Shown piece by piece: positions 3,808 to 20,093 of a DNA stretch of 64,000 bases. The stretch is from positions 62,001 through 126,000 of the forward strand of contig NZ_QTYB01000005.1 in assembly GCF_003461955.1 (NCBI RefSeq). Direction: 5' to 3'. The notes under the pieces are model-generated. The model did not search any database. It was not told the origin of the DNA and saw only the letters and a program-made list of their open reading frames with translations. The DNA is from Ruminococcus sp. AM36-2AA (GTDB lineage: Bacteria; Bacillota; Clostridia; Lachnospirales; Lachnospiraceae). Each line of letters opens with the position of its first letter. Within the stretch, counting starts at the first letter, position 1. Made by a program: the position numbers and the translations under genes.

Positions 3808-3825
3808 TTATTATCCCGTCCTGCC

Positions 3826-4257: not shown

Positions 4258-4268
4258 GGTGCACTTCC

Positions 4269-5703: not shown

Positions 5704-5720
5704 CTATAGATTATTTTTAT
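5704..5720 (+). promoter_or_regulatory. Candidate LysR box 1 (upstream of the first OYE reductase)
   Basis: CTATAGATTATTTTTAT carries the ATAGA half-site and T-rich spacer shared with boxes at 5747, 7882, 16702 and 18848. Its centre is about 65-70 bases before the predicted transcription start, where LysR recognition sites usually lie. Box 2 is 43 bases downstream, close to four helical turns. Confidence 0.5.
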
Positions 5721-5741
5721 TATATTACTGGTATTATGAAT

Positions 5742-5770
5742 TAGTTTTATAGATATTTTTGTTATATAAT
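5742..5770 (+). promoter_or_regulatory. Promoter of the OYE-aroE-aroD operon with LysR box 2
   Basis: Perfect TATAAT at 5765-5770; 17 bases upstream the -35 position (TAGTTT) is poor, as expected for an activator-dependent promoter. Box 2 (TTATAGATATTTTT, 5747-5760) lies between the two elements. An AGGGAGG ribosome site at 5805-5811 precedes the ATG by 9 bases. The rest of the 320-base gap (5501-5820) shows nothing else. Confidence 0.5.
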
Positions 5771-5820
5771 TAACACAAACAAACGATTCTATTAAAAAAT
5801 AACCAGGGAGGTTTTTCCAG

Positions 5821-7818
5821 ATGAAGAATGATTATCCGCATATTTTTTCCCCTTTAACCGTTAAAAATATGACTATTAAGAACCGTATTGTTATGATGCC
5901 GATGGGTACCAACTACGGTGAGCAGAACGGCGAAATGAGTTTTCTTCATATCAACTACTATGAGCAGCGTGCAAAGGGTGGCACAGGCCTCATTATCGTA
6001 GAGAACGCAAGCATCGATTCCCCGCAGGGTTCCAACGGTACTACCCAGCTTCGTATCGATCATGACAACTATCTTCCACGTCTTTTCAAATTCTGTGAGA
6101 ACATCCACAGATATGGAACAAAGATCGCGATCCAGATCAACCATGCAGGAGCTTCCGCAATTTCTTCCAGGATCAACATGCAGCCGGTTTCCGCATCTGA
6201 TGTTCCGTCAAAAGAAGGCGGCGAGATCCCGCGTCCTCTTTCCAGAGAAGAGATCCTTCACATTGTAAAGAAATACGGCGAGGCTGCAAAACGTGCACAG
6301 ACAGCCGGTTTTGACGCAGTAGAGATCCACGCAGGACATTCCTACCTGATCAGCCAGTTCCTTTCCCCGATCACAAACAAGCGTACCGACGAGTTCGGCG
6401 GATCTGTTGAGAACCGTACCCGTTTCTGCCGCATGGTCATCGACGAGGTAAGAAAACAGGTCGGACCATTCTTTCCGATCATGCTCCGTCTCAGTGCAGA
6501 TGAGCTGATGGAAGGTGGAAACACACTTGATGATACTCTGGAATATCTGGATTACCTTCAGGAAGAAGTTGATATCTTCGACGTTTCCTGCGGTCTCAAC
6601 GGTTCCATCCAGTACCAGATCGACGCAAACTATCTTCCGGATGGATGGCGTTCCTACATGGCAAAAGCTGTAAAAGAAAAATTCAACAAACCGTGTATTT
6701 CCATGGGTAACATCCGTGACCCGAAAGTTGCCGAGAGAATCCTCGCTGACGGCGACGCAGATCTTATCGGTATGGGACGCGGCCTTATCGCTGATCCTGC
6801 ATGGGTAAACAAAGTTGCCACAGGGCATGAGTGCGATCTCCGCAAATGTATCTCCTGTAACGTTGGATGCGCCGGAAACCGTATCGGTGTAAACCGTCCG
6901 ATCCGCTGTACCGTAAACCCGTCTGTTCTTGAGGGCGATGTATATAAGAAACTGCATGTAAACAAAAACTGCAACGTGGTTGTTATCGGCGGTGGTACTG
7001 CCGGACTGGAAGCTGCCTGCACAGCCGCAGAGGTTGGCTGCAACACCTTCCTTCTGGAAAAAGGCAGCGAGCTTGGCGGACTTGCATCTCTGATCTCAAA
7101 AATCCCTGCAAAGAACCGTCTGGCTGATTTCCCGCACTATCTCATGCACCGCGCAGAGCAGCTTGAGAACCTTTATATCTTCACAAATACAGAAGGAACA
7201 CCGGAGAACATTCGCAAGTTCCATCCGAATATCATCGTAAGTTCCACCGGTTCCGCTCCTCTTCTGCCTCCGATCGCAGGACTGAAGGATCGTATTGACA
7301 ACGAGGACTATAATATTTATTCTATTCTTGGTATGATCAACCACATTAATGATTTTCCAAAGGATCTGGAAGGCAAAAAAGTCGTTGTCGTAGGCGGCGG
7401 TGCTGTAGGTCTTGATGTTGTGGAATTCTTCGCAGACAGAAATGCAGACATCTCTATCGTTGAGATGATGGATCAGATCGGACGTGACCTTGATCCGGTA
7501 AGCAAGAACGACACAAAGGCCATGATGAAAAAACACAATGTACATCAGCTTACAAAAACTGCTCTCCTTGAGGTTAAGGATTCTTCCTTCCTTGTAAAAG
7601 GTGACGGCGAGCCTTATGAGCTTCCATTTGAATACGGTTTCGTATGTCTCGGAATGAGAGCCCAGGGACAGCTTTACCAGAGCCTTGCAGAAGAATTTTC
7701 TTCTGAGGATGTTGAGATCATGAACATCGGCGACAGCCAGAGAGCAAGAAGAATCATTGACGGTACCCAGGAAGGACGTAACATCCTTACCATTCTCGAG
7801 CAGAGAGGATACCTTTAA
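5821..7818 (+). CDS. OYE-family FMN/4Fe-4S/FAD oxidoreductase 1 (2,4-dienoyl-CoA reductase / BaiCD-like)
   Basis: Three-cofactor reductase of the 2,4-dienoyl-CoA reductase/enoate reductase/BaiCD group; such enzymes reduce electron-poor C=C bonds with NAD(P)H. Residues 1-340 form the FMN TIM barrel, with an EIHAGHSYLISQFLSP signature whose tyrosine matches the catalytic position. A 4Fe-4S site is at C343, C346, C350 and C363. Rossmann motifs are near residue 387 (VVIGGGTAGLEAA) and 522 (VVVVGGGAVGLDVV). 665 residues is full length. It heads a plus-strand operon with a quinate/shikimate dehydrogenase and dehydroquinase. A hydroaromatic substrate such as 3-dehydroshikimate or shikimate is my inference; bile-acid or enoyl-CoA substrates are not excluded. 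Confidence 0.9.
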   Translation: MKNDYPHIFSPLTVKNMTIKNRIVMMPMGTNYGEQNGEMSFLHINYYEQRAKGGTGLIIVENASIDSPQGSNGTTQLRIDHDNYLPRLFKFCENIHRYGTKIAIQINHAGASAISSRINMQPVSASDVPSKEGGEIPRPLSREEILHIVKKYGEAAKRAQTAGFDAVEIHAGHSYLISQFLSPITNKRTDEFGGSVENRTRFCRMVIDEVRKQVGPFFPIMLRLSADELMEGGNTLDDTLEYLDYLQEEVDIFDVSCGLNGSIQYQIDANYLPDGWRSYMAKAVKEKFNKPCISMGNIRDPKVAERILADGDADLIGMGRGLIADPAWVNKVATGHECDLRKCISCNVGCAGNRIGVNRPIRCTVNPSVLEGDVYKKLHVNKNCNVVVIGGGTAGLEAACTAAEVGCNTFLLEKGSELGGLASLISKIPAKNRLADFPHYLMHRAEQLENLYIFTNTEGTPENIRKFHPNIIVSSTGSAPLLPPIAGLKDRIDNEDYNIYSILGMINHINDFPKDLEGKKVVVVGGGAVGLDVVEFFADRNADISIVEMMDQIGRDLDPVSKNDTKAMMKKHNVHQLTKTALLEVKDSSFLVKGDGEPYELPFEYGFVCLGMRAQGQLYQSLAEEFSSEDVEIMNIGDSQRARRIIDGTQEGRNILTILEQRGYL

Positions 7819-8009
7819 TATCATCGCTATAACCTCCTGACGGGCATTTTCATATGTTATAAAGTCCGCTCCACGGAGTGTCTATAGATTTTCCACGTCT
7901 TCCTCCCGCTGCAGCCGTCCGAAGAACATCCGCAACTTCTTCAGACTGATGTGGCGGGAGGTTTTAAAAAAGTTACCCAAGATTTTTACCAATGAGAGGA
8001 GTTATTACC
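7819..8009 (+). promoter_or_regulatory. Operon-internal leader with LysR box 3 and long hairpin
   Basis: Box 3 (CTATAGATTTTCC, 7882-7894) repeats the island's ATAGA half-site. Downstream, CCTCCCGC (7902-7909) pairs with GCGGGAGG (7954-7961), followed by TTTT; the loop holds a second hairpin, GAAGAA/TTCTTC (7921-7942). This could be a partial terminator or attenuator between the reductase and the dehydrogenase. The following gene has its own GAGAGGAG ribosome site. Confidence 0.4.
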
Positions 8010-8888
8010 ATGTCAGAAAGAATCACAGGACACACAGAGCTCATCGGTCTTATGGCTTATCCGATCCGTCACTCCAGCTCTCCTGCCATGCAGAACGAAG
8101 CTTTTGCAAAGCTTGGCTATGACTATGCATACCTTGCATTTGAAGTTGGCGCAGATGAGATCGAGGATGCTGTAAAAGCCATCCGTACTCTGAAAATGAG
8201 AGGTTCCAACGTTTCCATGCCGAACAAGACTCTGGTAGGCCAGTACCTTGACGAGCTTTCACCGGCAGCAGAAATGTGCGGTGCTGTAAACACCATCGTC
8301 AATGATCACGGCCATCTTACAGGCCACATCACAGATGGCATCGGATTTATGGCAGCACTGAAAGACAACAACATTGACGCCATCGGAAAGAAAATGACCA
8401 TCGTAGGCGCAGGCGGTGCTGCTACTGCTATTGAGATCCAGGCTGCACTTGACGGTGTAGGCGAGATCGTGATCTTTAACCGTAAGGATGAGTTCTGGGA
8501 CCGTGCCGTATCTACTGTTGAAAAGATCAACACAAGAACATCCAGCCACGCAGTTCTCTATGATCTCTCCGACCTTGACCAGCTGAAAAAAGAAATGGCT
8601 GACAGTTATATTTTTGTAAATGCCACAGGCGTTGGAATGAAACCGCTGGAAGGCCAGTCCGTTGTCCCGGATAAATCTTACTTCCGTCCGGAGCTTATCG
8701 TTGTTGACGTACCATACTCCCCTCTTGAAACCACTATGCGTTCCATGGCAAAGGAAGTTGGCTGCAAGACAATGAACGGCCTTGGCATGATGCTTTTCCA
8801 GGGCTCCGCTGCATTTGAACTGTGGACCGGCGAGCCGATGCCGATCGAGCATATGAAAGAGATTCTTAATATCAGATACGATGACTGA
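8010..8888 (+). CDS. YdiB-like quinate/shikimate dehydrogenase 1
   Basis: Interconverts quinate with 3-dehydroquinate and shikimate with 3-dehydroshikimate using NAD(P). Substrate domain: HSSSPAMQN and GSNVSMPNK (catalytic lysine), GAVNTIV. Cofactor domain: GAGGAATAIEIQ followed by FNRKDEFWDRA, very like E. coli YdiB (NAD-tolerant) and unlike the NRT motif of biosynthetic AroE. The usual GxNTDG is GHITDG, losing the asparagine. 292 residues is typical. I start at 8010, preceded by GAGAGGAG, not at the upstream ATG (7993 region). It lies 31 bases before aroD. A catabolic rather than biosynthetic role is inferred from context. Confidence 0.88.
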   Translation: MSERITGHTELIGLMAYPIRHSSSPAMQNEAFAKLGYDYAYLAFEVGADEIEDAVKAIRTLKMRGSNVSMPNKTLVGQYLDELSPAAEMCGAVNTIVNDHGHLTGHITDGIGFMAALKDNNIDAIGKKMTIVGAGGAATAIEIQAALDGVGEIVIFNRKDEFWDRAVSTVEKINTRTSSHAVLYDLSDLDQLKKEMADSYIFVNATGVGMKPLEGQSVVPDKSYFRPELIVVDVPYSPLETTMRSMAKEVGCKTMNGLGMMLFQGSAAFELWTGEPMPIEHMKEILNIRYDD

Positions 8889-8919
8889 TAAAATCCCATC
8901 CGTATCGGAAAGGACCATT

Positions 8920-9681
8920 ATGAAAACAGTTCAGGTAAGAAATATCACAATCGGAGAGGGCAGACCGAAGATCTGTGTCCCGATCGTTGGACAGACAAAG
9001 GAGGATATCCTTCTTGAAGCAGGAACCTTCGAAAGAATCCCGGTGGATGTTGTAGAATGGCGTGTGGACTGGTTCGAGAATGTTTTTGACACAGACAAAG
9101 TTCTTGATGTGGCAAAAGATCTCCAGACCGTTTTAAAGGACACTCCGATCCTCTTTACCTTCCGTACTGCAAAGGAAGGCGGAGAAAAAGCAATCTCCAG
9201 CGAAGATTACAAAGCCCTCAACATGGCTGTTGCAAAAAGTGGCTATGTAGATTTCATTGATGTAGAAGCCTTCACAGGCGAAGAGATCGTAAAAAGCATG
9301 ATCCAGGAAGCTCACAGCTATGGCGTAAAAGTCATCGCTTCCAACCATGATTTTGATGCAACTCCTGAGAAAGATGAGATCGTGCGCCGTCTCCGCATGA
9401 TGCAGGATTATGGCGCAGATATCCCGAAGATGGCTGTTATGCCTAAGAGCAAACAGGACGTACTTACCCTTTTAAGTGCAACACTGGAAATGTCCGAGCA
9501 GTTCGCCGACCGCCCGATCATTACCATGTCCATGGCAGGAACCGGTGTTGTCAGCCGTCTCACTGGCGAAACCTTTGGTTCCGCCCTTACCTTCGGTGCC
9601 GCTACAAAAGCTTCCGCACCGGGGCAGATCAATGTCAACGAGCTTGAACAGGTTCTTGACATTATCCACAAAAGCCTGTGA
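8920..9681 (+). CDS. aroD: Type I 3-dehydroquinate dehydratase
   Basis: Dehydrates 3-dehydroquinate to 3-dehydroshikimate by a Schiff-base mechanism. The family signatures are in order: VEWRVDW (substrate-binding Glu/Arg), ASNHDFDATP (catalytic histidine), PKMAVMPK (Schiff-base lysine) and TGVVSRLTGETFGSALTF (arginine). 253 residues is standard. I place the start at 8920, where GGAAAGGA ends 5 bases upstream; an upstream ATG at 8881 would overlap the preceding stop. Last gene of the plus-strand operon. The enzyme serves both biosynthesis and quinate breakdown; adjacency to a YdiB-like gene mirrors the ydiB-aroD pair of E. coli. Confidence 0.95.
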   Translation: MKTVQVRNITIGEGRPKICVPIVGQTKEDILLEAGTFERIPVDVVEWRVDWFENVFDTDKVLDVAKDLQTVLKDTPILFTFRTAKEGGEKAISSEDYKALNMAVAKSGYVDFIDVEAFTGEEIVKSMIQEAHSYGVKVIASNHDFDATPEKDEIVRRLRMMQDYGADIPKMAVMPKSKQDVLTLLSATLEMSEQFADRPIITMSMAGTGVVSRLTGETFGSALTFGAATKASAPGQINVNELEQVLDIIHKSL

Positions 9682-9786
9682 TCCTGTAACCTCCCATTGA
9701 AAGGATCTACGGCTTCGTTTAAGAAAGAACGTGAATTATAGACCAATTTTAATCCCAATTAATGTAACAAATTTAACCAAATAGCA

Positions 9787-9809
9787 AATGCGGATGATTT
9801 TATCCGCTT
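9787..9809 (-). repeat. Dispersed intergenic repeat, family 1, inverted fragment
   Basis: A 23-base segment that, on the minus strand, is identical to positions 3198-3220 of the first repeat copy (AAGCGGATAAAA followed by TCATCCGCATT). The surrounding gap (9682-9861) also holds loose direct repeats of TTTAATCCCA, TAGCAAAT and TGTAACAAA. Confidence 0.6.
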
Positions 9810-9861
9810 TAATCCCATAATAGCAAATCTATTTTGTAACAAAAACAAATCTCATGACAAA

Positions 9862-9905
9862 AATAGGAACTGCGCTGACCCATCCAGTGCAGTTCCTATT
9901 TTCTT
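9862..9905. terminator. Bidirectional terminator between aroD and the NCS2-like permease gene
   Basis: AATAGGAACTGC pairs with GCAGTTCCTATT; the stem extends inward to about 16 bp with one G-U pair. It has T-rich flanks on both strands (TTCTTTT on plus, TTTTT on minus), serving the two convergent genes. Confidence 0.85.
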
Positions 9906-9920
9906 TTATCGCTTTACTTA

Positions 9921-11312
9921 TTATTTCTCAGTTTTTTCCTCAATGACATTTTCCTGTGATTTTTTCCTTGGGTCCCAGTTGGAAAGGAAGATATTCAGTC
10001 CGAAACCAACAGCCAGAGCCCATGCAGATGCCCATGCAGTTCCCTGGGTTGCAAGGACAGCAGCCATAACACCTGCGATCATCTTGTCACGGTCTGTCTT
10101 ACAGTAATCCATACCGATCCTTGCACAGACAAAGGCCTGGAACATCAGAGTGATGGAAGAACCAACTCCGAAGATCGGGCGGAAGAAACTTACAACTGGA
10201 ATGATCAGCACACTTAAGAAAGTTGCAATACGGAAGGACGCCATACCGCCAAGAAGAGACTTCATGGCTTTCTTTCCTTCTTTGTAACGGATGGAGACAG
10301 ATACGGTCATGCCAACCCATAACGGACCGGAAAGGGGCGGGAACGGTGCGATGATGGAAAGAATCAGATTTCGAAGTCCGCTGACCAGGTTGGAACGGCT
10401 GGAATTGAAATCAATGTACTCATCATCTCTGGACTGACGTGCCTCAGTAACCAGGGTTTCTGTGGTAACAAAATCACCAAATGCGATAACATAGCATACA
10501 AGTGCCAGAGGAAGCGCTTTGATAAACATGGAAAGCGGCGGGATTCCCACACCGAAAATACTTACCTGTGAGATGATCTCTTTAAACTGCGGGATCTTGA
10601 TAAAAGTTCCAATCTCTAATCCCGGTTTGTCCAGCTCCCCCACAAGAAGGCCAACTACCATGGCGATCAGATACGGGAAAAGGTTTCCATAGCGGGCAAC
10701 AAGATCCAGAAATTTATTGTTCTTTCTCTTCTCCTGGTATTTATCCGAAAAACTGATCAGGATCAGAAGGCCAACACCTGCGACGATCGCCAAGGGATAT
10801 TTGTGCATATTGCCGCCCTCTCCCAGCTGACCTGCCATAACCGTAACCGGCGCTGCAAGAAGGATTCCACCCTTGACGGAATCCGGTACAGCATGGACAA
10901 ATTTATCCGCAAGTTTGGTAACGCCCATAAATATGAACACAAGACCAACCAGCATCTGCAGGGCGATCATTGCCTGGATACGCTCTTTTCCCAGGGGAAA
11001 GCCTTCCAGAAATACGATAGTCAGCGGAAGGGTCGGCGTGATCCATCCGGGAACTACCGGATCGCCAAGTAAACTGTGTAGCATATACAGCATGGTCTCT
11101 ATGATGACACAGCTCCATGCCAGCTCATAAGGCAGTCCCAGATACTGTTCCAGATAAGGGACAGCCGCAAGTGCCGTAACGCCAAGGATCAGGCCCTGGA
11201 TAAATTCTACGGACTCAAGTTTGTAATGAATAAAGGGAAGACGAACCTGAAATGGCCCAAACGGAATGTAGGGCAGTTCGTTTTCTCTTCTCTGTCTTGC
11301 TGCACGCGCCAT
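9921..11312 (-). CDS. NCS2-like (xanthine/uracil permease superfamily) membrane transporter
   Basis: 463-residue polytopic membrane protein with about 12-14 hydrophobic segments. It shows FGDFVTTETLVTEARQSRDDE, then SGLRNLI and FPPLSGP, arranged as in NCS2/SulP-fold carriers, though divergent from true uracil permeases such as the one at 59.6 kb. The basic N-terminus (MARAARQRREN) is cytoplasmic. It is the last member of the minus-strand island but is separated from the MFS gene by 237 bases and has its own promoter with a perfect palindrome. The substrate is unknown; a hydroaromatic carboxylate fits the context, a nucleobase the family. Confidence 0.7.
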   Translation of the reverse strand: MARAARQRRENELPYIPFGPFQVRLPFIHYKLESVEFIQGLILGVTALAAVPYLEQYLGLPYELAWSCVIIETMLYMLHSLLGDPVVPGWITPTLPLTIVFLEGFPLGKERIQAMIALQMLVGLVFIFMGVTKLADKFVHAVPDSVKGGILLAAPVTVMAGQLGEGGNMHKYPLAIVAGVGLLILISFSDKYQEKRKNNKFLDLVARYGNLFPYLIAMVVGLLVGELDKPGLEIGTFIKIPQFKEIISQVSIFGVGIPPLSMFIKALPLALVCYVIAFGDFVTTETLVTEARQSRDDEYIDFNSSRSNLVSGLRNLILSIIAPFPPLSGPLWVGMTVSVSIRYKEGKKAMKSLLGGMASFRIATFLSVLIIPVVSFFRPIFGVGSSITLMFQAFVCARIGMDYCKTDRDKMIAGVMAAVLATQGTAWASAWALAVGFGLNIFLSNWDPRKKSQENVIEEKTEK

Positions 11313-11350
11313 AACGATTCTCCTTTGTCAGTTTTTTTGATAATACATAT

Positions 11351-11398: not shown

Positions 11399-11404
11399 AA
11401 CATC

Positions 11405-11530
11405 AAAGTCCAATCCGGGAATTGTTCCCGAATTGGAACTTTATTTTGTACAGATTCCGTCATCTTCGTCCGAATCCATACAATGATTGTTACGGTTCAC
11501 TCCGTGACCTGCGAACCGTAACTGATCATT
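11405..11530. other. Two intergenic hairpins between MFS carrier and permease
   Basis: Hairpin one (11405-11441) pairs AAAGTCCAAT and CCGGGAA with TTCCCG and ATTGGAACTT with small mismatches. Hairpin two (11482-11530) has AATGAT and TTACGGTTC paired with GAACCGTAA and ATCATT around a 13-base loop. Neither has a clean U-run; they may end the MFS transcript or protect its 3' end. Confidence 0.5.
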
Positions 11531-11549
11531 CACTTATTTCCACCCTGTC

Positions 11550-12749
11550 TCAGGCTTCTTTTCCACGGTTCATCTTGACAAACAGTGCAAGAAGGATTCC
11601 AATGAATGTCACTGCCATGTTAAGAAGCAGGATCATTCTCGGAGCGCTGGTTCCGGCAGTCTTTGTAATGTAACCTGCCAGTGTCAGGATGGTATAGTTT
11701 GCAACGCTGGATGCGATCATAACCATGGATGTTGCAGTTCCCTTGTTCTCCGGGAAGAATTCAGCGGTTGTGGAAACTGCCAGCTGCAATACACCGCCTG
11801 CGCCCGCGAAACCGATGACAAATCCACCGATGAGGCAGATAGTCGGGTTCTGGATAAAATAGCACAGTCCCAGCATGATAAAGGAAATCAGCGGATAGAT
11901 GATCAGGATATTGATCTCTTTCAGTCCTTTTTTGATAAATACAGAGGAACACAGGATCGCTGCAAAAGTTCCAACTGCATAGAAGGACTGGATCTTGGAA
12001 GGATCACTTAAATTATAAAGTTTTCCAAGCTCCTGGTTACAGTTCAGCCACAGCATGAATGTGGAAGAACTTGTAAATCCAATGAGGATCGCTGCAATTG
12101 CCGCAGGAGTGATCTTTAACTTTGTTTTCTCTTTCTTTTCTGCACCTGTTGTATTTCTGTCCGGGAATGGCAGGAACAGGATCAGGATTCCATCGATGAA
12201 GATTGCAGCACCTGCAACGATAAAGATGGTTCTGTAGGACATATTAGCCGCTGCTACGAATCCGATGAGGAACGGAAGCAGGAACTGACTGATACACATG
12301 GAGAATTTTGTAAACAGGTTCGCCACAGAAGGATTGTTTACATAGATTTCCATGCATGTAGGGCTTACACAGGTATCCAGGAAAGAGTTTGCGATACCAC
12401 CTACAATGGCAAAGGCATAGGCAACGCCCATAGACGGAGCAAATGCGATTCCCATAAAGTATGCTGCATAGCAGATCACACCAATGATTCCACTTAATCT
12501 GCGTCCGAATTTGTCGGACAGGGGACCGGAAAACGGAAGGGAGATCAGTCTTCCAAGTCCCAGTGCAGCGATTACGGATACTACCATGCTGACATCCATA
12601 GTTCCGTCACTTAAAGCCTTTGCTCCCCAGTGAGCCGCAAGCTCCGGCTTGTACTGGCCCATGATGGAAGCTCCGATTCCGTGAATGAAATATGTAAAAT
12701 ACAGCGCGATAGAAGTAATTACCAAATTTTTCTTACCTGTCTGGCTCAT
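11550..12749 (-). CDS. MFS transporter, YdiM/YdiN-like (putative hydroaromatic acid carrier)
   Basis: 399-residue major facilitator with 12 predicted membrane segments and loop motif A as GPLSDKFGRR. Resemblance to E. coli YdiN is visible in LGLGRLIS, GGIANSFLDT, GFAGAGGVLQLAVS and AEFFPENKG. In E. coli ydiN sits beside ydiB and aroD, as this gene sits beside a YdiB-like gene here (5-base gap), so import of quinate or shikimate is a reasonable inference. The ribosome site (AAGGGAA) lies in the end of the upstream gene, suggesting coupled translation. Confidence 0.82.
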   Translation of the reverse strand: MSQTGKKNLVITSIALYFTYFIHGIGASIMGQYKPELAAHWGAKALSDGTMDVSMVVSVIAALGLGRLISLPFSGPLSDKFGRRLSGIIGVICYAAYFMGIAFAPSMGVAYAFAIVGGIANSFLDTCVSPTCMEIYVNNPSVANLFTKFSMCISQFLLPFLIGFVAAANMSYRTIFIVAGAAIFIDGILILFLPFPDRNTTGAEKKEKTKLKITPAAIAAILIGFTSSSTFMLWLNCNQELGKLYNLSDPSKIQSFYAVGTFAAILCSSVFIKKGLKEINILIIYPLISFIMLGLCYFIQNPTICLIGGFVIGFAGAGGVLQLAVSTTAEFFPENKGTATSMVMIASSVANYTILTLAGYITKTAGTSAPRMILLLNMAVTFIGILLALFVKMNRGKEA

Positions 12750-12754
12750 GATTC

Positions 12755-13636
12755 TTATTTCCCTTCGTTCTCAGCCTGGAATTTCTGGTACTCATCTGTA
12801 GGCATCTCAAGTCCTGTGTACAGTTTATAGGACTCAGCGCCCTGCCACAGAAGCATTCCTTTTCCGCCTACTGCAAGTTTTACGCCTGCTTCTTTTGCCT
12901 CTTTTACCATTCTTGTCTCTGCAGGATTGTATACGCAGTCAGCAACGACAAGATCTTTGTGGAACATGGATTTGTCAACCAGAGTAAGGTCATCGTGTGG
13001 TTTCATTCCTGCAAGTGTTCCGTTTGCAAGAATGTCTGCGTTTGCGATCTCTTCTCTCAGTTTGTCCTGATCGTCCAGGCAGTATACGCTTACTTTGCAG
13101 TCCGGTACTTCTTTTGCAAGCTTCTCTGCTGTTCCTTTTGCTCTTTCAAGGAACGGGTCATCCGGATTGAAGATCGCGATGGATGCTGCTCCGTCAAGGG
13201 CACACTGTACAGTAAGAGCTGTAGCTGCTCCGCCTGCTCCTAAGACTACCATCTTTTTGCCTTTTACGTCAACGCCGTGCTCTTTTAAGTTGCGGACAAA
13301 TCCGATACCGTCTGTGATATGTCCTACAAGTTTTCCATCCTCATTCACAATGGTGTTTACAGCGCCGATGATCTTTGCTGCCGGTGAAAGCTCGTCTACA
13401 CACTGAGCTACTTTGTTCTTGCAAGGCATGGTTACGTTGCATCCTCTCATTTTGAAAAGGCGCATTGCATCAAGAGCTGCCGGAACCTGATCCTCTTTGA
13501 TATCGAATGCCATGTAAGCATAGTCCAGGTTATGGTACTGGAAGCTGAAGTTGTACATAGCCGGTGATCCGGAGTGTCCTACCGGACTTCCGATCAGCGC
13601 GAGTAAACCAGTTGTTCCTTTAATTCTCTGTTCCAT
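12755..13636 (-). CDS. YdiB-like quinate/shikimate dehydrogenase 2
   Basis: Second shikimate-dehydrogenase-family enzyme, 293 residues. It has HSGSPAMYN, GCNVTMPCK (catalytic lysine), GAVNTIV, GAGGAATALTVQ and a cofactor loop FNPDDPFLERA that differs from the NADP-type NRT motif. It shares the altered GHITDG motif and the C-terminal GMLLWQGAE signature of YdiB. The start is at 13636, preceded by GCAGGAGG; the longer frame adds 12 unlikely residues. Cotranscribed with the MFS gene and probably the reductase upstream. Two paralogues in one island may divide quinate and shikimate or the oxidative and reductive directions; which does which is unknown. Confidence 0.87.
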   Translation of the reverse strand: MEQRIKGTTGLLALIGSPVGHSGSPAMYNFSFQYHNLDYAYMAFDIKEDQVPAALDAMRLFKMRGCNVTMPCKNKVAQCVDELSPAAKIIGAVNTIVNEDGKLVGHITDGIGFVRNLKEHGVDVKGKKMVVLGAGGAATALTVQCALDGAASIAIFNPDDPFLERAKGTAEKLAKEVPDCKVSVYCLDDQDKLREEIANADILANGTLAGMKPHDDLTLVDKSMFHKDLVVADCVYNPAETRMVKEAKEAGVKLAVGGKGMLLWQGAESYKLYTGLEMPTDEYQKFQAENEGK

Positions 13637-13796
13637 TTCTTTTTTCCTCCTGCATTCTCTCCTTGCAGCCACCGGATGTTTTCTCCGGTGCCTGTCAGGA
13701 TGTTTCTTTTATTTTTCTTCTGTCCTGTTTATTGGACAATTATTTTCTTGTGTATTGATACGATCCGGTGCCTGACGCTGTCAGGCGGATATCCCA
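13637..13796. other. Intergenic spacer with two small hairpins
   Basis: 160 bases between reductase 2 and dehydrogenase 2. CACCGGA/TCCGGTG (13670-13690) and GCCTGAC-GCT-GTCAGGC (13770-13786) form hairpins, the second directly after the reductase stop. No U-run follows on the minus strand, so they may process or stabilise the message rather than end it. Confidence 0.45.
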
Positions 13797-15722
13797 TCAG
13801 AGTCTGGAAGCTACCTCATAAGCCTCTTTTGTTGCATCCAGTGCACGTCTTGCACGGATGGCATCTCCGATCACGTGTGTCTCAGGTACAAGATCTTTGA
13901 TCTTTTCTTCAAGTGGATTGTAATTGCGGAATCCCATGGAAAGGATAACGGAATCATATCCTCTTGTCTCATGACGTACTCCGTCAGCTGTCTCGTACTC
14001 TACACCGTCTTCATAGAATTTGCATACCTTTGCTCCGGTGATCTCTTTGATTCCGTAGTCCTCGAAATCTTTCATGAGATAGACTCTGTGCTCATGGATC
14101 ACGTCTGCACCTACGGTATCACGGAACTCGATCACCGTTACATCATGCTCCTGCTCGCCCAGGAATGCAGCGGTCTCACATCCTACCATTCCACCGCCCA
14201 CAACAAGAACTTTTTTGCCTGCTGGTCTCTTTCCGTCCAGAAGATCAGAACCGTGGATGATGGCCGGATTGTCGATTCCCTCGATAGGAAGGATCAGAGT
14301 CTTGGAACCCGTTGCGATGATCACACTGTCCGGTTTCTCCTCTTTGATAAGCTCCGGAGTTACCTCACAGTTCATCACGATCTTCACGCCGTCTTTCTGG
14401 CAGCGGTGGATATAGCTGCGGATCATGTTTGTGATATCACCTTTTCCTGGTGGATAAGCCGCAAGTCTCATGTTTCCGCCGAGAACATCTCCTGCTTCAT
14501 AAAGTGTTACTTCGTGTCCTTTCTCTTTTGCGATAAATGCAGCGCAAAGTCCTGCAACACCACCGCCGATCACCATAACTTTCTTCGGATTCTCTGTCTT
14601 AGCAATTGGCTCTGCCTCATGTCCAAGGAACGGGTTGGTCAGACAGCAGATCGGGTTTCCTGCATACATGTTTGCAACACATCCCTGAAGACAGGCGATA
14701 CATGGAGTCATATCCTCCAGACGCTCTTCCAGTGCTTTTTTCGGCATAGCAGGATCTGCAAGGCTCTGACGGCCAAATGCTACAAGGTCTGCTCTTCCTT
14801 CTTTTACCATCAGTTCTGCAAACTGTGGCTCTGTATAACGTCCGACTGTGATCACCGGAATGTTTACCGCACGTTTGATCTCCTCAACCTCTGATGCGGA
14901 GAATCCACCATGGATAACCGTCGGTGCCCACATAAATTCATCTTTGATATGAACGGCACGGGATACGTGGATGGCATCCAGTCCGCAGCTTTCCAGGTAT
15001 GCTGCGATCGCCGCGCTGTCATGGATGTCAAGGCCGCCTGGAACCTCATCTGCACAGTTGATTCTTGCAAGGATCGCAATCCTGCCCTGTGTTGTTTTCT
15101 TGATCTCCTCAATGATCAGGCGTGAGAAACGCATGCGGTTCTCAAAGCATCCGCCAAACTCATCCACTCTCTTGTTTGTTCTTGGAGAGAGGAATGTGCT
15201 TACCAGATAGCCGTGTGCCATATGGATCTCAACAGCATCTGCACCTGCTTCCATGGCTCTTCTTGCTGCCTCGCCATATCCTTTGATCAGCTCATAAACT
15301 TCCTCTGTTGTAAGCTGTTTCGGAATGTCACGTCCACATACAGACGGGATGCTGGTTGCTGCTGTGATCGGTGCTCCTGCGTTCTTTGCATTTCCTTCCG
15401 GACCTGCATTCTGAAGCTGGATGGAAACTTTTGCACCTTCCACATGGCATCCGTCAATAACTTTGCGGAAGCTCTCGATGGTAGAATCATCATAGAGACA
15501 TGGTTTACGCGGGCCGCCTTTTGCGCCTTTGTGAACGACGGTAGCCTCGATAGTGATCAGGCCAAATCCGCCTTTTGCTCTTTCCTTATAATATGCAGCG
15601 GACTGCTCGCTCATAGTTCCGTCTGTATTTGCAAAGTTATTTCCCATTGGCGGAACAACGAAACGGTTTTTTACGGTCATAGGGCCGATCTCGATCGGCT
15701 GAAACATCGCATTGAATTTCAT
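13797..15722 (-). CDS. OYE-family FMN/4Fe-4S/FAD oxidoreductase 2
   Basis: Second three-cofactor ene-reductase, 641 residues, clearly homologous but not near-identical to the one at 5.8 kb. The FMN barrel has EIHMAHGYLVSTFLSP with the catalytic-type tyrosine. The Fe-S cysteines start at C341 and follow CIACLQGC, with the fourth in PICCLTNP. FAD and NAD(P) Rossmann motifs are VMVIGGGVAGLCAA and VLVVGGGMVGCETA. It follows the dehydratase-like gene by 18 bases. In this setting it may reduce the ring C=C of a hydroaromatic or cyclohexadienoid acid, possibly as an electron sink. The substrate is inference. Confidence 0.9.
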   Translation of the reverse strand: MKFNAMFQPIEIGPMTVKNRFVVPPMGNNFANTDGTMSEQSAAYYKERAKGGFGLITIEATVVHKGAKGGPRKPCLYDDSTIESFRKVIDGCHVEGAKVSIQLQNAGPEGNAKNAGAPITAATSIPSVCGRDIPKQLTTEEVYELIKGYGEAARRAMEAGADAVEIHMAHGYLVSTFLSPRTNKRVDEFGGCFENRMRFSRLIIEEIKKTTQGRIAILARINCADEVPGGLDIHDSAAIAAYLESCGLDAIHVSRAVHIKDEFMWAPTVIHGGFSASEVEEIKRAVNIPVITVGRYTEPQFAELMVKEGRADLVAFGRQSLADPAMPKKALEERLEDMTPCIACLQGCVANMYAGNPICCLTNPFLGHEAEPIAKTENPKKVMVIGGGVAGLCAAFIAKEKGHEVTLYEAGDVLGGNMRLAAYPPGKGDITNMIRSYIHRCQKDGVKIVMNCEVTPELIKEEKPDSVIIATGSKTLILPIEGIDNPAIIHGSDLLDGKRPAGKKVLVVGGGMVGCETAAFLGEQEHDVTVIEFRDTVGADVIHEHRVYLMKDFEDYGIKEITGAKVCKFYEDGVEYETADGVRHETRGYDSVILSMGFRNYNPLEEKIKDLVPETHVIGDAIRARRALDATKEAYEVASRL

Positions 15723-15740
15723 GTGGGTTCTCCTTTCTGA

Positions 15741-16580
15741 TTAAAGTACCTCTGGCCAGGCTTCTTCCAGTACCTTCTTTGTGTTCTCGTATGTATGTTT
15801 TGCAGCATACTCGATACCTTTTTCAAGGTTTGCATCGCTGATAACCTCTACGCCGATAGCGTTTGGTTTAATTCCTTTTTCACGGATCATTTTCACGAAC
15901 GGTACGGTTGTTCCGATTCCGGTTCCAGGAGCAAGGCGGTCATGCATGGACTCATCTCTTAAGATAGTTGTCGCATATGGTCTTTCCCATACATCGTTGA
16001 TCTGGATGGATACGATCTTATCTGCCGGGATTCCCTCAAGTACAGAAAGTTCGATCGGCTGGTTTGCTCTTACCCAGTGCCATGTATCGAGGATCAGTTT
16101 TGCATTCTCGCAGTCAGCAGCTTTTACAACAGCCCAGCCTTTTTTTACATCCGGGATTCCGCTGTATGGCATTGGCTCAACGCCGATGATGTATTTGCCA
16201 GCTCTCTGGCAGAGCTCACGAAGTTTCTGTGCTGTATACTCCACAGAATAGTTCTCCATCAGTCCACAGTTGATCTGTTTTACGTTAAATAATTCACACA
16301 TATGGAAGCAGAGCTGTTCTTTGTATTTCTGCTCGTAGGAACGATGCTCCTCTGCCCACTGTACGATATACTCAACCTCTGTTACCTTCATGTCATATTT
16401 ATCCAGGATTGCCAGGATATCCTTATCGAAAAGTCCCTCATTCAGGGCATCTACGTAGGTTTCCGCTCTCAGGCCGATTCCCTCATAGCCAGCTTCTTTG
16501 GCAGCTTTTACACGGTCCTCAAATTTGCACTGATCCCCAAGTGTCCAGGAACTGATTGTAATTGGAAATTCTTTTGACAT
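15741..16580 (-). CDS. TIM-barrel protein resembling 3-dehydroshikimate dehydratase
   Basis: AP-endonuclease-2/xylose-isomerase-like TIM barrel of 279 residues. Candidate divalent-metal ligands are E135 (GVEP), D165 (LDTWH), Q193 (IQIND) and E245 (GVEV), with H168 beside the second. Glutamine instead of the common histidine at the third position, together with the SMHDRLAPGTG loop, is what I recall for QuiC1/QsuB-type 3-dehydroshikimate dehydratases, which yield protocatechuate. A generic sugar-phosphate isomerase remains possible. The start at 16580 is set by CAGGAGGAG upstream. First gene of the minus-strand catabolic operon. Confidence 0.7.
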   Translation of the reverse strand: MSKEFPITISSWTLGDQCKFEDRVKAAKEAGYEGIGLRAETYVDALNEGLFDKDILAILDKYDMKVTEVEYIVQWAEEHRSYEQKYKEQLCFHMCELFNVKQINCGLMENYSVEYTAQKLRELCQRAGKYIIGVEPMPYSGIPDVKKGWAVVKAADCENAKLILDTWHWVRANQPIELSVLEGIPADKIVSIQINDVWERPYATTILRDESMHDRLAPGTGIGTTVPFVKMIREKGIKPNAIGVEVISDANLEKGIEYAAKHTYENTKKVLEEAWPEVL

Positions 16581-16653
16581 GATAACTCCTCCTGAAAATA
16601 TAAATAATTTTTTTAGGTTTTTTTTAATTATTTTGTATCTTTTTTCTATAAGC

Positions 16654-16682
16654 ATTATATAACTTCGTTAAATACAAAACAA
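16654..16682 (-). promoter_or_regulatory. Promoter of the minus-strand catabolic operon
   Basis: TTGTTT (16677-16682) and TATAAT (16654-16659) on the minus strand with exactly 17 bases between. The expected start near 16647 leaves a leader of about 67 bases. LysR box 4 sits near -64. Confidence 0.65.
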
Positions 16683-16701
16683 ATTGATTGTACCAGGAGA
16701 A

Positions 16702-16734
16702 TTCATAGATTTTATCAATATATCGTGGTATACT
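16702..16734. promoter_or_regulatory. LysR box 4 and LysR-1 promoter (divergent control region)
   Basis: TTCATAGATTTTATCAATAT (16702-16721) matches the island's half-site. It lies near -64 of the minus-strand operon promoter. On the plus strand TATACT (16729-16734), preceded by TGG as an extended -10, could drive the LysR gene, with the box overlapping its -35. This is the classical arrangement of an autoregulated LysR gene divergent from its target. Confidence 0.55.
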
Positions 16735-16863
16735 ATATAAAAACATTTTCACTGTACTGCCACCGTCACAGCAGTCAGACCGGCAATTCCTTCTGATCAT
16801 CCGACTTCACTGGAATCTGCCTGAATAAAACATTCAGCTAAACTTACGAAAGGAGCTTCGAAA

Positions 16864-17772
16864 ATGAACCTGTATCATCTTCGTTATTTCGTGACACTGG
16901 CGCATCTGGAACATTACACGAAAGCTGCTGATGTTCTGGCGATCACACAGCCCAGTTTAAGTCATGCGATCTCTTCCCTGGAGGAAGAACTTGGAGTGAA
17001 ATTATTTGAAAAAAACGGACGGAATGTTTCTCTCACCAAATATGGCAAGACTTTTCTGGGAGATGTGGAAGAAACCCTGAACCGGCTGGATTCCTCTGTA
17101 AACGGCCTCCAGCTTGCAGGAAAAGGAGAAGGGCAAATTGATGTGGCTTTTCTCAGGACCCTTGGAGTTGATTTTGTGCCGAAGATCATCCGCAATTTTC
17201 TCACCGCCAACGAAGGAAAACAGATCAATTTCAATCTGTTCTGTGACAAGGTTCTTACCGGCGATATCCTTACCGGGCTGAAAGAGAAGAAATATGATAT
17301 CGGCTTCTGTTCCAAATTTGATGACGAACCGCTGATCGAGTTTATCCCGGTTGCCAAACAGGACCTGGTGGTTATTGTTCCGCCCGGCCATCCTCTTGCG
17401 GAGAAATCCGAGATCCATCTGGAGGAAACCCTTCCTTACAAACAGATCATTTTTAAGAAACGAAGTGGGCTCCGCCAGATCATCGACCAGCTGTTTAAGA
17501 GTATCGGTCAGTACCCGGATGTGGCCTTTGAGATCGATGAGGACCAGGTTGCCGCAGGATTTGTTGCCAATGATTTCGGCATCTGCATTGCCCCGGATAT
17601 CCCCATCCTTCATTCTTTGGATCTTAAGATCCTGCCCCTTGTTTCTCCAAGCTGGCAGAGAAATTTCTACATGGCCATGCTGAAAGATGTATACCATCCT
17701 CCGGTTGTGGAAGCCTTTAAGAAGTTTGTAATCGAGAAAACATCAAAAGAGATTTTCTATAAAACAAATTAA
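16864..17772 (+). CDS. LysR-family regulator 1 of the hydroaromatic island
   Basis: 302-residue LysR-type transcription factor: winged helix-turn-helix in residues 1-60 (recognition helix region ITQPSLSHAISSLEEEL) and a periplasmic-binding-protein-like effector domain from about residue 90. It is transcribed divergently from the dehydratase/reductase/dehydrogenase/MFS operon, the standard position for a pathway activator. AAAGGAG upstream sets the start. The effector is probably a pathway intermediate such as 3-dehydroshikimate or protocatechuate (inference). Its recognition helix nearly equals that of LysR-2 at 19.2 kb. Confidence 0.9.
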   Translation: MNLYHLRYFVTLAHLEHYTKAADVLAITQPSLSHAISSLEEELGVKLFEKNGRNVSLTKYGKTFLGDVEETLNRLDSSVNGLQLAGKGEGQIDVAFLRTLGVDFVPKIIRNFLTANEGKQINFNLFCDKVLTGDILTGLKEKKYDIGFCSKFDDEPLIEFIPVAKQDLVVIVPPGHPLAEKSEIHLEETLPYKQIIFKKRSGLRQIIDQLFKSIGQYPDVAFEIDEDQVAAGFVANDFGICIAPDIPILHSLDLKILPLVSPSWQRNFYMAMLKDVYHPPVVEAFKKFVIEKTSKEIFYKTN

Positions 17773-17805
17773 GAGCTTCGGGAGACCTTCCAAAGGAGAT
17801 CTCCT

Positions 17806-17886
17806 GACAGCCAAAAAGACAGCTAAAAAGACAGCTGTCCAATTCCCGTCTTGTTTCTGTACGGTTTATTGGACAGCTGTCCTCTT
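17806..17886. terminator. Bidirectional terminator with tandem repeat between LysR-1 and shikimate kinase fusion
   Basis: A perfect 14-bp inverted repeat, GACAGCTGTCCAAT (17830-17843) and ATTGGACAGCTGTC (17868-17881), encloses a 24-base loop. It is preceded by two tandem copies of GACAGCYAAAAA. On the minus side A-rich tracts precede it; on the plus side CTCTTATT follows. Likely ends both convergent genes. Confidence 0.6.
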
Positions 17887-17921
17887 ATTATGTAAGAATA
17901 TTCTGTTTCTGTAATCAGTAA

Positions 17922-18710
17922 TTATTTATTCGCATCTGCCTCACGAAGTCTGTGGATCATCTCCTCACAGATCTCAAGCTCGCTCTTACCATCGGTCTCA
18001 ATAACGATGTCGGCTGCTGCCTCGTATTTCGCACGACGTTTCTCCATCAGATCTGCGATGAACGGAACCGTCTTGTTGTTCTCAAGCAGCGGACGGTCAT
18101 GGTTGTCTTTTACACGCTCCAGGATCGTCTCAGGTTTTGCGGTAAGGAGTACAACACGGCCGTTTTTCTTCATTTCAACAACGTTGCGCTCTCTCATGGG
18201 AACACCACCGCCACAGGATACGACAACATTGGACTGAGACTGCATCTCAATGAGAAGGTTTGTCTCAAGCTCACGGAAATACTCTTCTCCGTAAGTCTCA
18301 AAGATATCGGAAATGCTCATTCCCTGTCTCTCCACGATACACTGATCCATCTCCACAACATCCATAGCCAGCGCGTTCTTCAGATAATCAGAGATTGTGG
18401 ATTTCCCTGCGCCCATGAATCCGATCAGGAAAATATTGTAGTTGAAAAGATTTCTGGACTGGATTCTCTTACTGTTCTGTGTGATGCTTGCGAAAACATC
18501 ATTAACTTCTTTCTTATGGCGTCTGCCTTCCATTCTGGCTTCCAGCCATCCTTTCTGCTTCGCCTCCTGCTCCGGCTGCAGTACCGGAAGATTGTTGGCT
18601 TCCTTGTATACCATGATGTCCTCTACGATTCTGTTTCTCATAAGCAGTGCGTCCAGGATGATCTCATCGCACTGTCCAAGGCTCTCTCTTAATACTTCTA
18701 ACTGGTTCAT
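17922..18710 (-). CDS. aroK: Chorismate mutase-like/shikimate kinase fusion
   Basis: Shikimate kinase (ATP-dependent 3-phosphorylation of shikimate) with an N-terminal AroQ-type domain. Residues 1-85 resemble chorismate mutase (LR at 8, MRNRIVED, YKEAN with K36), but the position of the conserved second-half arginine appears to be Q48, so mutase activity is doubtful. Kinase domain 92-262: Walker A GFMGAGKST (97-105), EMD at 120-122, R146 (FRELE), SCGGG (166-169) and RPLL. 262 residues. It carries its own promoter with a perfect-dyad LysR-type box. Located in a catabolic island, it may pull imported shikimate into aromatic synthesis. Confidence 0.88.
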   Translation of the reverse strand: MNQLEVLRESLGQCDEIILDALLMRNRIVEDIMVYKEANNLPVLQPEQEAKQKGWLEARMEGRRHKKEVNDVFASITQNSKRIQSRNLFNYNIFLIGFMGAGKSTISDYLKNALAMDVVEMDQCIVERQGMSISDIFETYGEEYFRELETNLLIEMQSQSNVVVSCGGGVPMRERNVVEMKKNGRVVLLTAKPETILERVKDNHDRPLLENNKTVPFIADLMEKRRAKYEAAADIVIETDGKSELEICEEMIHRLREADANK

Positions 18711-18787
18711 AACTTCTCCTTTGCTTCGTTCGTTGTATCACGGATTTCCGTCATCACTTTATCACTTTAAACCAAGTGTCTGTTCTT

Positions 18788-18816
18788 ATTATACCAACTG
18801 GTCATTTTTATCTCAA
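18788..18816 (-). promoter_or_regulatory. Promoter of the shikimate kinase fusion
   Basis: TTGAGA (18811-18816) and TATAAT (18788-18793) on the minus strand with 17-base spacing; both elements are close to consensus. Confidence 0.75.
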
Positions 18817-18847
18817 CCTAAACTTTTATTGAATTTGCACATGTGAT

Positions 18848-18866
18848 TCATAGATATTTTCTATGA
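18848..18866. promoter_or_regulatory. LysR box 5, perfect dyad
   Basis: TCATAGATATTTTCTATGA is a perfect 7-5-7 inverted repeat centred about 76 bases before the predicted start of the shikimate kinase transcript. It is the most symmetrical member of the island's ATAGA box family and defines the likely consensus. Confidence 0.6.
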
Positions 18867-18973
18867 TTTTTTTCAGGGAATCCTGTCACATATCTTACCG
18901 AAGAATGAGCCCTGACACCCGGAATCACACTTCTTCCTCTGCCCTCATAACCAAAATCCTATTGAAATCTACA

Positions 18974-19041
18974 GTCAAACGGATATTCGCAATCCGCATT
19001 CGCTACACAGCTCTACACCGAATAACTGCTTCGCAGTTTAT
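18974..19041 (+). repeat. Dispersed intergenic repeat, family 1, copy 2
   Basis: Aligns over its length with 3195-3260 and 46675-46741; shares CGCTACACAGCTCT and TTCGCAGTTTAT with the third copy. It lies in the 483-base gap 18711-19193, which holds no convincing gene. That gap also contains a 9-bp hairpin, TCAGGAGGA/TCCTCCTGA (19041-19062), immediately after this repeat. Confidence 0.7.
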
Positions 19042-19108
19042 CAGGAGGATCACTCCTCCTGATACAAGCAACTCCCCCCGCTGCTTATTGCTTTTCGCAA
19101 GTGAAGCA

Positions 19109-19131
19109 GGGGACTTCCTTGATTCGATTAA
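19109..19131 (+). repeat. Short dispersed intergenic repeat, family 2, copy 2
   Basis: Contains GACTTCCTTGATTCGATTAA, one mismatch from the copy at 62455-62474 and two from 3067-3089 (opposite strand). Here it lies about 70 bases after a family 1 copy. Confidence 0.6.
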
Positions 19132-19170
19132 AAAATCTCTGCCCTATTATTACAAAAGCAGAGATTTTTT
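19130..19170. terminator. Terminator of LysR-2 (bidirectional form)
   Basis: AAAAAATCTCTGC and GCAGAGATTTTTT form a perfect 13-bp stem with a 15-base loop; U-runs exist in both directions. It lies 24 bases past the LysR-2 stop on the minus strand. Confidence 0.85.
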
Positions 19171-19193
19171 CATACAATTCTTTCACAGGTATT

Positions 19194-20093
19194 CTACTGT
19201 ATCACTTCATAGATCCGGTAATGTTTGAAAATATAATCCCGAAACTGCTCCACAAGAGAACTTGGGTACCGTTTTTTCAACATACCCATGTATATGTAAC
19301 GGCGGTAATGAAGATTCTCGATATTTAAGATCTTCACAGGCAGAGTATGGATCACCGGCACATCCGGCACGATTCCCACACCGAACCCTTCTGCCACCAT
19401 TCCCGCGAGGGCGCCATCCTCCTCCACTTCAAAAGCGGTTTCCGGTACGATCCCCTCTTTTTCAAAAAGTTCACGCACCACAAAATACAGCCCACTGGTA
19501 GGGGTAAAAGTCACCTGGGGATACTGGCCCAGTTCCTCTATGGTCACTGTATTTTTTCCGGCAAGAGCATGATCTTCCGGTACAACAGCCACCAGTTTTT
19601 CTTCCGCTACCGGTACAAAACTGATCTCTTTTTCCCCTTCCGCACGGGAGCAGAAGATCATGTCAAACTTTTCTTCTTTCAGGCCCCGGATCAGGTTCCC
19701 GGTAGCTGCATTCTGGAAATGAAAATCAATCTTCTTCCCTTCCTGCTCATCAAGAAACCCACGTACAAGTTCCGGAATAAATCTGCGTCCCTGGGTATGG
19801 ATATATCCGATGGAAATGCTTCCGCCTGGAATCCTTGCCGCCTCCTGGATCCTCTCCACACCAAGATTCAGGATATGTAAGGAGTCCTGCACATATTTCA
19901 GAAACATTTCCCCGTATTTGGTCATGGTCACATTTCTTCCGTGACGCTCAAAAAGTGGAACCTGGAGTTCTTTTTCCAGGTTGGAGATGGCATGGCTGAG
20001 GCTTGGCTGTGTAATATCCAGCCGCTTGGCTGCCCTGGTATAATTTTCGATCTGGGCAAGCGTCACAAAATATGTGAGCTGATTTAAGTTCAT
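19194..20093 (-). CDS. LysR-family regulator 2
   Basis: 299-residue LysR-type regulator. The DNA-binding segment (ITQPSLSHAISNLEKEL) is nearly identical to that of LysR-1, suggesting the two read the same boxes, while the effector domains diverge. It is transcribed in the same direction as the shikimate kinase fusion but lies upstream of it, separated by the repeat-rich gap and a terminator. An AAAGGA site precedes the ATG with a 9-base spacer. The effector is unknown. Confidence 0.88.
   Translation of the reverse strand: MNLNQLTYFVTLAQIENYTRAAKRLDITQPSLSHAISNLEKELQVPLFERHGRNVTMTKYGEMFLKYVQDSLHILNLGVERIQEAARIPGGSISIGYIHTQGRRFIPELVRGFLDEQEGKKIDFHFQNAATGNLIRGLKEEKFDMIFCSRAEGEKEISFVPVAEEKLVAVVPEDHALAGKNTVTIEELGQYPQVTFTPTSGLYFVVRELFEKEGIVPETAFEVEEDGALAGMVAEGFGVGIVPDVPVIHTLPVKILNIENLHYRRYIYMGMLKKRYPSSLVEQFRDYIFKHYRIYEVIQ

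Follow-up and report, generated by a model that had tools for sequence, protein, structure and literature searches.

A Listeria-type quinate/shikimate locus in Ruminococcus sp. AM36-2AA with flavoenzymes that may reduce the hydroaromatic ring

What do two large flavoenzymes do in a locus for quinate and shikimate? The question is raised by a stretch of 64,000 nucleotides from Ruminococcus sp. AM36-2AA (contig NZ_QTYB01000005.1, positions 62,001 to 126,000; this whole stretch is the window below), in which positions 5821-20093 hold eleven genes, each a continuous open frame. Two gene sets are found in this island: OYE1-SDH1-DHQ1, that is, a three-cofactor flavoenzyme, a quinate/shikimate dehydrogenase and a dehydroquinase, and QUIC-OYE2-SDH2-MFS, that is, a TIM barrel, a second flavoenzyme, a second dehydrogenase and a carrier. 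Two LysR regulators (LYSR1 and LYSR2) accompany them. Sequence comparison establishes which families the genes belong to, that they form two sets and that these are kin to sets in Listeria, and it is well supported that the locus is of the Listeria qui1+qui2 type, a locus class with a layout that is already known. We further propose, with a confidence slightly short of even, that this locus under its QuiR-like LysR proteins would use the hydroaromatic ring as an electron acceptor.

Gene families were called with NCBIfam and Pfam cut-offs, and the closest relatives with a solved structure were also compared. Both YdiB-like dehydrogenases, the type I dehydroquinase and the chorismate mutase-shikimate kinase fusion score over their cut-offs (Table 1), as an initial annotation of the window had claimed, and its calls of a 3-dehydroshikimate-dehydratase-like barrel and of two LysR regulators are likewise borne out. 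The closest solved structure of SDH1 (3tnl) is that of a Listeria monocytogenes dehydrogenase. QUIC matches Lmo2234 across the full barrel (E = 6×10−97), and with 304 amino acids against 635 model positions it reaches 22 bits on the two-domain QuiC dehydroshikimate dehydratase model (NF042435, cut-off 1200 bits). OYE1 (665 amino acids) and OYE2 (641 amino acids) are both made of Oxidored_FMN and Pyr_redox_2, and the four cysteines of an iron-sulphur-type motif, invariant in eight aligned OYE1 sequences (Cys343, 346, 350 and 363), are common to OYE2, in line with the annotated OYE/Fe-S/FAD reductases. Neither protein reaches the models of BaiCD (NF041087, cut-off 825; 473.7 for OYE1 and 538.8 for OYE2) or of the long form of bilirubin reductase (NF045599, cut-off 750; 352.6 and 472.9), and both score far under the cut-off of the NCBIfam model for mycofactocin OYE. 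The best solved match of both LysR proteins is Lmo0488 (E = 1.3×10−43 and 3.4×10−40), which is listed as QuiR with shikimate in an excerpted appendix (PMC11205737). By overall best match, rather than by comparison of ligand residues, the effector domains of LYSR1 and LYSR2 are assigned to the shikimate-binding QuiR type. Of the annotated "YdiN-like MFS carrier", membership in MFS_1 is what stands. The "NCS2-like" label of the permease is not confirmed, as this protein has no NCBIfam match and in Pfam only a sub-threshold one (MFS_MOT1, 24.5 bits, cut-off 30); its predicted structure model (predicted local distance difference test score 45.6) is too poor for use.

The kinship with Listeria extends to both sets. 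Set 1 of Listeria consists of a LysR gene, OYE1, SDH1 and DHQ1 (43-44%, 60-61%, 65% and 59-60% identity with the window proteins), and set 2 (locus L125) of a LysR gene (57%), QUIC (57%), OYE2 (67%), SDH2 (57%), an MFS gene (62%) and another MFS gene. Sequences of solved structures match genes of both Listeria stretches at 99-100%, and these stretches are thus the Lmo0488 and Lmo2234 neighbourhoods. The order OYE-SDH-type I dehydroquinase on one strand is seen in the window as in loci L121, L122 and L127, and so is, in comparison with L125, the order QuiC2-OYE-SDH-MFS with a divergent LysR gene. A QuiR-type LysR gene directly divergent from the OYE-SDH-dehydroquinase set is absent from the window, where a NUDIX gene flanks OYE1 and no LysR gene is directly next to it. 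The initial annotation had regarded the pairing of each dehydrogenase with a three-cofactor reductase as an undescribed layout; this does not hold, as the pairing is present in both Listeria loci and the OYE1-SDH pair also in Enterococcus, Klebsiella and others. Both halves lie within about 10 kb in a metagenome-assembled Ruminococcus genome (L028), and OYE1, SDH, QUIC, OYE2 and SDH2 lie within about 10 kb in Eubacterium aggregans (L043; no dehydroquinase in the stretch read). The joining of the two halves is thus not unique to the window. The Listeria records L121, L125 (NZ_CP030101.1) and L127 (NZ_LR134402.1), which carry these loci, are filed as plasmids, the first of them with 2.9 Mb, and look like mislabelled chromosome sequence.

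To what pathway, then, do the flavoenzymes belong? Named genomes were scanned with an alignment of OYE1; the scan gave more than 80 loci, of which the best 80 were kept and split at 50% identity into 51 and 29. Within 6 kb, the 51 loci with at least 50% identity bear SDH in 37 cases, dehydroquinase in 32, a QuiR-like LysR in 34 and MFS in 34, whereas all four are lacking from each of the 29 more distant loci (for SDH, P = 1.6×10−11, Fisher's exact test, which ignores kinship among the loci). The 51 loci span Lachnospiraceae, Enterococcus, Paenibacillus, Agrilactobacillus, Cellulomonas and others. OYE1 is patchily distributed, in 5 of 41 relatives (E ≤ 10−100) and 7 of 393 genomes of the class (E ≤ 10−135), and is found in 45 of 395 genomes of Lactobacillales (E ≤ 10−140); SDH1 adjoins it in 36 of the 37 examined among these 45, the exception being G829. 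Because the OYE1-SDH1-DHQ1 trio recurs within the genus (at least 7 of 38 genomes) and OYE1 occurs with SDH in many other groups, the clustering of the island genes, judged from gene neighbourhoods, is not due to chance. The annotated quinate/shikimate locus is thereby upheld, with its reductases tied to it by conserved neighbourhood. An unrelated pathway was also looked for: among ten neighbour proteins scanned in five of the 14 loci without SDH (L029, L054, L057, L059 and L060), no common pathway was found; in L060, a LysR gene and the kinase fusion are near OYE1 although SDH is lacking within 6 kb. A 7-mer shared by the upstream regions of OYE1 and of QUIC/LYSR1 (ATAGATT, six genomes aligned) was discarded as a LysR motif, being too weak in AT-rich DNA.

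Another possibility is that the locus serves shikimate salvage and biosynthesis, in which shikimate would be taken up and led to chorismate by the kinase fusion, with the OYE proteins as unrelated passengers. Five related genomes share the island (one of them is 83% complete); in each, a type I dehydroquinase was found once, in the island, and type II dehydroquinase was not found in these five. DHQ1, as the sole dehydroquinase found there, probably also serves biosynthesis, acting in both directions, unless the strains make no chorismate. This, together with the presence of the chorismate mutase-shikimate kinase in the locus and, for 11 of the 51 loci, no more than 6 kb from OYE1, speaks for salvage. 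However, the five genomes have three SDH-family genes and three to four shikimate kinases each, so that one SDH-family gene beyond the island's pair, and two or more further kinases, lie elsewhere; OYE1 is linked with SDH across Firmicutes, Actinobacteria and Klebsiella; and salvage has no need of QUIC. We therefore regard salvage as very unlikely. Type I dehydroquinase is present in 37 of 38 genomes of the genus, and among 20 of these 37 loci that were read, seven have the order OYE1-SDH1-DHQ1 and 13 hold copies (40-66% identity) without an adjoining OYE1.

What is new here is that many lactobacilli carry other reductases in the OYE1 and OYE2 slots. Plasmid pMP118 of Ligilactobacillus salivarius bears MFS, LysR, QUIC, SDR, flavoprotein, SDH and dehydroquinase genes, with the flavoprotein (FMN_bind/FAD_binding_2) in the OYE1 slot and the SDR in the OYE2 slot. 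Fumarate, acrylate and urocanate reductases likewise combine FMN_bind with FAD_binding_2. Close kin of this flavoprotein (E ≤ 10−150) occur in 14 genomes of Lactobacillales; of these, nine have both SDH1 and DHQ1 in the 8-18 kb read, two have another gene of the set and three have none. QUIC (E ≤ 10−60) is found in 37 of the 395 genomes. With the best QUIC place or a second copy counted for each genome, OYE2 lies at most 2.5 kb away in 16, the SDR in 14, both in none and neither in seven. OYE1 is present in 18 of these 37 genomes; of the other 19, six have the close flavoprotein. Among the many NCBIfam models that the SDR and the flavoprotein hit far below cut-off are some for cyclohexanecarboxylate enzymes, which is a hint only. 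The swapped cluster of pMP118 (L126, 5171-14104) has a bile salt hydrolase gene in its vicinity, the plasmid being typed as mobilizable, and QUIC has a match in 28 Ligilactobacillus plasmid records.

These swaps make it more likely that 3-dehydroshikimate serves as electron acceptor, as the initial annotation had guessed. They also bear on the main rival, a protocatechuate route as proposed for Listeria, in which SDH1, SDH2, DHQ1 and QUIC would make protocatechuate for excretion and the OYE proteins would be auxiliary, scavenging side products or recycling pyridine nucleotides. Listeria forms protocatechuate, and QuiC2, which is presumably Lmo2234, reportedly belongs to a class of dehydroshikimate dehydratases, to judge from the title of one paper (reference 40 of PMC9324987). 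But this route leaves unexplained why OYE2 or the SDR is found beside QUIC in 30 of 37 QUIC genomes and why OYE1 accompanies SDH1 in genomes that lack QUIC, and as such it yields no electron sink; we consider it unlikely.

The preferred reading, in which the hydroaromatic ring would be reduced, can be set out in steps, although we infer the chemistry of all window enzymes from their families and neighbours. Shikimate would induce the locus; SDH1 would oxidise quinate or shikimate, and DHQ1 would dehydrate dehydroquinate to 3-dehydroshikimate, of which the C=C bond, flanked by a ketone and a carboxylate as in fumarate, would be reduced by OYE1. QUIC would then strip the reduced compound of its 5-hydroxyl, yielding a diketone or diosphenol, OYE2 may turn this into a hydroxyketone, and SDH2 may reduce the last ketone to 3,4-dihydroxycyclohexanecarboxylate. 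Each ring would yield one NADH and consume three, so that two NADH would be disposed of on balance. The order of steps is suggested by co-occurrence. Since OYE1 is found without QUIC in 27 of the 45 OYE1 genomes of Lactobacillales, its substrate should arise before QUIC acts, which fits 3-dehydroshikimate; since OYE2 (at least 58% identity) adjoins QUIC in nine of ten genomes from an OYE2 search, the exception being Enteroscipio rubneri, OYE2 should act after QUIC; and since protocatechuate is an implausible substrate for an OYE enzyme, the product of QUIC here should be non-aromatic. Dihydroxycyclohexanecarboxylate is the product of lactobacilli from quinate and shikimate, and the role of these two acids in lactobacilli was reportedly, from its title, the subject of a 1971 paper by Whiting and Coggins (cited in PMC8149962).

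Several observations weigh against this reading. The Listeria relative of QUIC is placed, by the paper title mentioned above, among dehydroshikimate dehydratases, and we know of no reduced product in Listeria. SDH is missing from the 6-kb surroundings of 14 among the 51 OYE1 loci (some of these lie on short contigs), and neither OYE1 nor the close flavoprotein is present in 13 of the 37 QUIC genomes. OYE1 and the flavoprotein never occur together in the 395 genomes, but this absence of overlap is not significant (P(0) = 0.18). Enteroscipio rubneri (L059 and L272) has homologs of OYE1 (65%) and OYE2 (64%), each without the usual partners in the stretch read; they might act as acceptor reductases whose substrate comes from other species. 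QUIC, OYE2 and OYE1 are immediate neighbours on a short contig of Eubacteriales (L058, 7.1-11.1 kb), with no SDH or dehydroquinase in the stretch.

A further explanation is a chlorogenate locus, in which the OYE proteins would reduce hydroxycinnamates freed along with quinate, and SDH, dehydroquinase and QUIC would process the quinate. Clostridial enoate reductases with the architecture of OYE1 and OYE2 reduce cinnamates. HcrA/HcrB of L. plantarum reduce hydroxycinnamates as acceptors (excerpt of PMC13101492), a precedent by which the swapped flavoprotein could do so too, and two hydrolases in the vicinity of the Listeria OYE1 set, one CocE/NonD and one GDSL, might be esterases. Yet the eleven genes of the island include neither an esterase nor a CoA ligase, and the annotation next to a related set in Klebsiella shows none either; this explanation seems improbable. 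Searches of the open literature, which leave out most subscription papers, turned up nothing on OYE enzymes associated with quinate loci and nothing on genes for reducing quinate. Gilliamella quiA was set aside as a quinone-linked enzyme of another kind, according to an excerpt of PMC11325843.

In a wider form, which we hold only tentatively and consider rather doubtful, a reductive quinate/shikimate pathway of anaerobes, so far without assigned genes, would be shared by Lachnospiraceae, Listeria, enterococci and lactobacilli, with 3-dehydroshikimate as a fumarate-like acceptor and QUIC dehydrating the reduced ring rather than making it aromatic. Each of its two reductase slots could take enzymes of unrelated origin, the one an OYE or an FMN_bind flavoprotein, the other an OYE or an SDR.

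The features of the island are listed in Table 1. The GC content is 0.464 in the island and 0.456 in the remaining window. OYE1, SDH1 and DHQ1 follow each other on the plus strand; convergent to them on the minus strand are the permease gene and then the second set, which reads downward from 16655 as QUIC, OYE2, SDH2 and MFS carrier. LYSR1 is divergent from QUIC, and past it the kinase fusion and LYSR2 are on the minus strand. Probable internal starts, judged by the N-terminal starts of relatives, are at about 8010 for SDH1, 13636 for SDH2 and 16580 for QUIC. Terminator-like sites in the stretch number 22, against 12.7 expected in shuffles, and the 18-pair repeat is the longest; the hairpin positions fit two units, OYE1-SDH1-DHQ1 and QUIC-OYE2-SDH2-MFS. 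Outside the island, 3277-4634 (minus strand) encodes two tandem EutS-like microcompartment shell proteins, below the NCBIfam cut-off but with the BMC domain above that of Pfam, and an EutP/PduV-type GTPase; no microcompartment enzyme was found among their scanned neighbours.

Table 1. Positions of the island features in the window, with the evidence for each call (FMN, flavin mononucleotide; FAD, flavin adenine dinucleotide)
Feature	Position	Strand	Evidence
OYE1, qui1-type three-cofactor flavoenzyme (FMN barrel, Cys4 Fe-S-type motif, FAD/NAD domain)	5821..7818	+	Pfam/NCBIfam; 60-61% to Listeria protein adjoining QuiR
SDH1, quinate/shikimate dehydrogenase, YdiB type	7992..8888	+	NF001313, 500 bits (cut-off 431); best solved structure 3tnl
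DHQ1, type I 3-dehydroquinate dehydratase	8881..9681	+	TIGR01093, 258.6 bits (cut-off 139.3)
Inverted repeat, 18 pairs, terminator-like, between convergent DHQ1 and permease genes	9860..9902		Hairpin scan
Polytopic permease, no family over cut-off	9921..11312	-	Relatives beside qui-type genes in loci L039, L043, L159
Terminator-like hairpin, 13 pairs, 3' of MFS gene	11409..11437	-	Hairpin scan
MFS carrier, qui2-type operon	11550..12749	-	MFS_1; 62% to Listeria carrier in L125
SDH2, second YdiB-like dehydrogenase	12755..13672	-	NF009200, 486 bits (cut-off 432); 57% to Listeria copy in L125
OYE2, second three-cofactor flavoenzyme, qui2-type	13797..15722	-	Pfam/NCBIfam; 67% to Listeria protein
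QUIC, QuiC2/Lmo2234-type TIM barrel	15741..16655	-	AP_endonuc_2; best solved relative Lmo2234
LYSR1, QuiR-like LysR	16864..17772	+	Best solved structure 5ted (Lmo0488/QuiR)
Chorismate mutase-shikimate kinase fusion	17922..18710	-	PF01817 and PF01202 over cut-off
LYSR2, second QuiR-like LysR	19194..20093	-	Best solved structure 5ted

Quinate and shikimate are in the diet, in coffee, fruit and vegetables. In mice with a microbiota, faecal shikimate and serum quinate are lower and serum hippurate is higher than in germ-free mice (excerpt of PMC8526691), and several bee gut bacteria use quinate (excerpt of PMC5726620). Those OYE1 proteins of about 100% identity that bear a source name, a minority, are from Blautia sp. 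or Ruminococcus sp. AM41-10BH, and the reductases may let gut Blautia dump electrons on ring acids rather than burn them. If the ring is indeed reduced, the gene set, present as it is in Blautia, enterococci, lactobacilli and Klebsiella, would make it easier to recognise the gut bacteria that form reduced ring acids, and the lactobacillus reaction studied in 1971 would gain its genes; if protocatechuate is formed instead, the gene set would mark its producers.

Compared with known systems, OYE1 and OYE2 have the same build of FMN barrel, Fe-S-type motif and FAD domain as 2-enoate reductase, BaiCD and bilirubin reductase, the cofactors being predicted. Aerobic qui/qsu clusters are those of Acinetobacter and Corynebacterium. 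The window has the same dehydrogenase, dehydroquinase and dehydroshikimate dehydratase functions as these clusters but differs in having reductases, and no gene for protocatechuate ring cleavage is among the eleven island genes, to which that search was limited. In Klebsiella pneumoniae, OYE (55%), SDH (61%), MFS, aroD (51%) and LysR beside leuABCD form a qui1-type set like that of the window; unlike the window, QUIC, OYE2 and SDH2 are lacking from the stretch read, and the set was not matched in E. coli genomes by megablast. The plasmid-borne set of pMP118 is related to the window in QUIC (70%), SDH1 (60%), DHQ1 (45%), LysR (43% to LYSR1) and MFS genes, and differs from it in both reductases. 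The closest comparison is with the Listeria loci; Prezioso and others reportedly named them qui1 and qui2 and described their response to shikimate in 2018. Gene content and order are alike in both halves, with 57-67% identity in the enzymes and the carrier and with QuiR-type LysR proteins. The two loci are separate in Listeria, whereas in the window the halves are joined in one stretch and convergent; a QuiR-type LysR gene stands beside OYE-SDH-dehydroquinase in qui1 of Listeria, whereas those of the window lie only at 16.9 and 19.2-20.1 kb; and the permease without a family call and the chorismate mutase-shikimate kinase are extras of the window.

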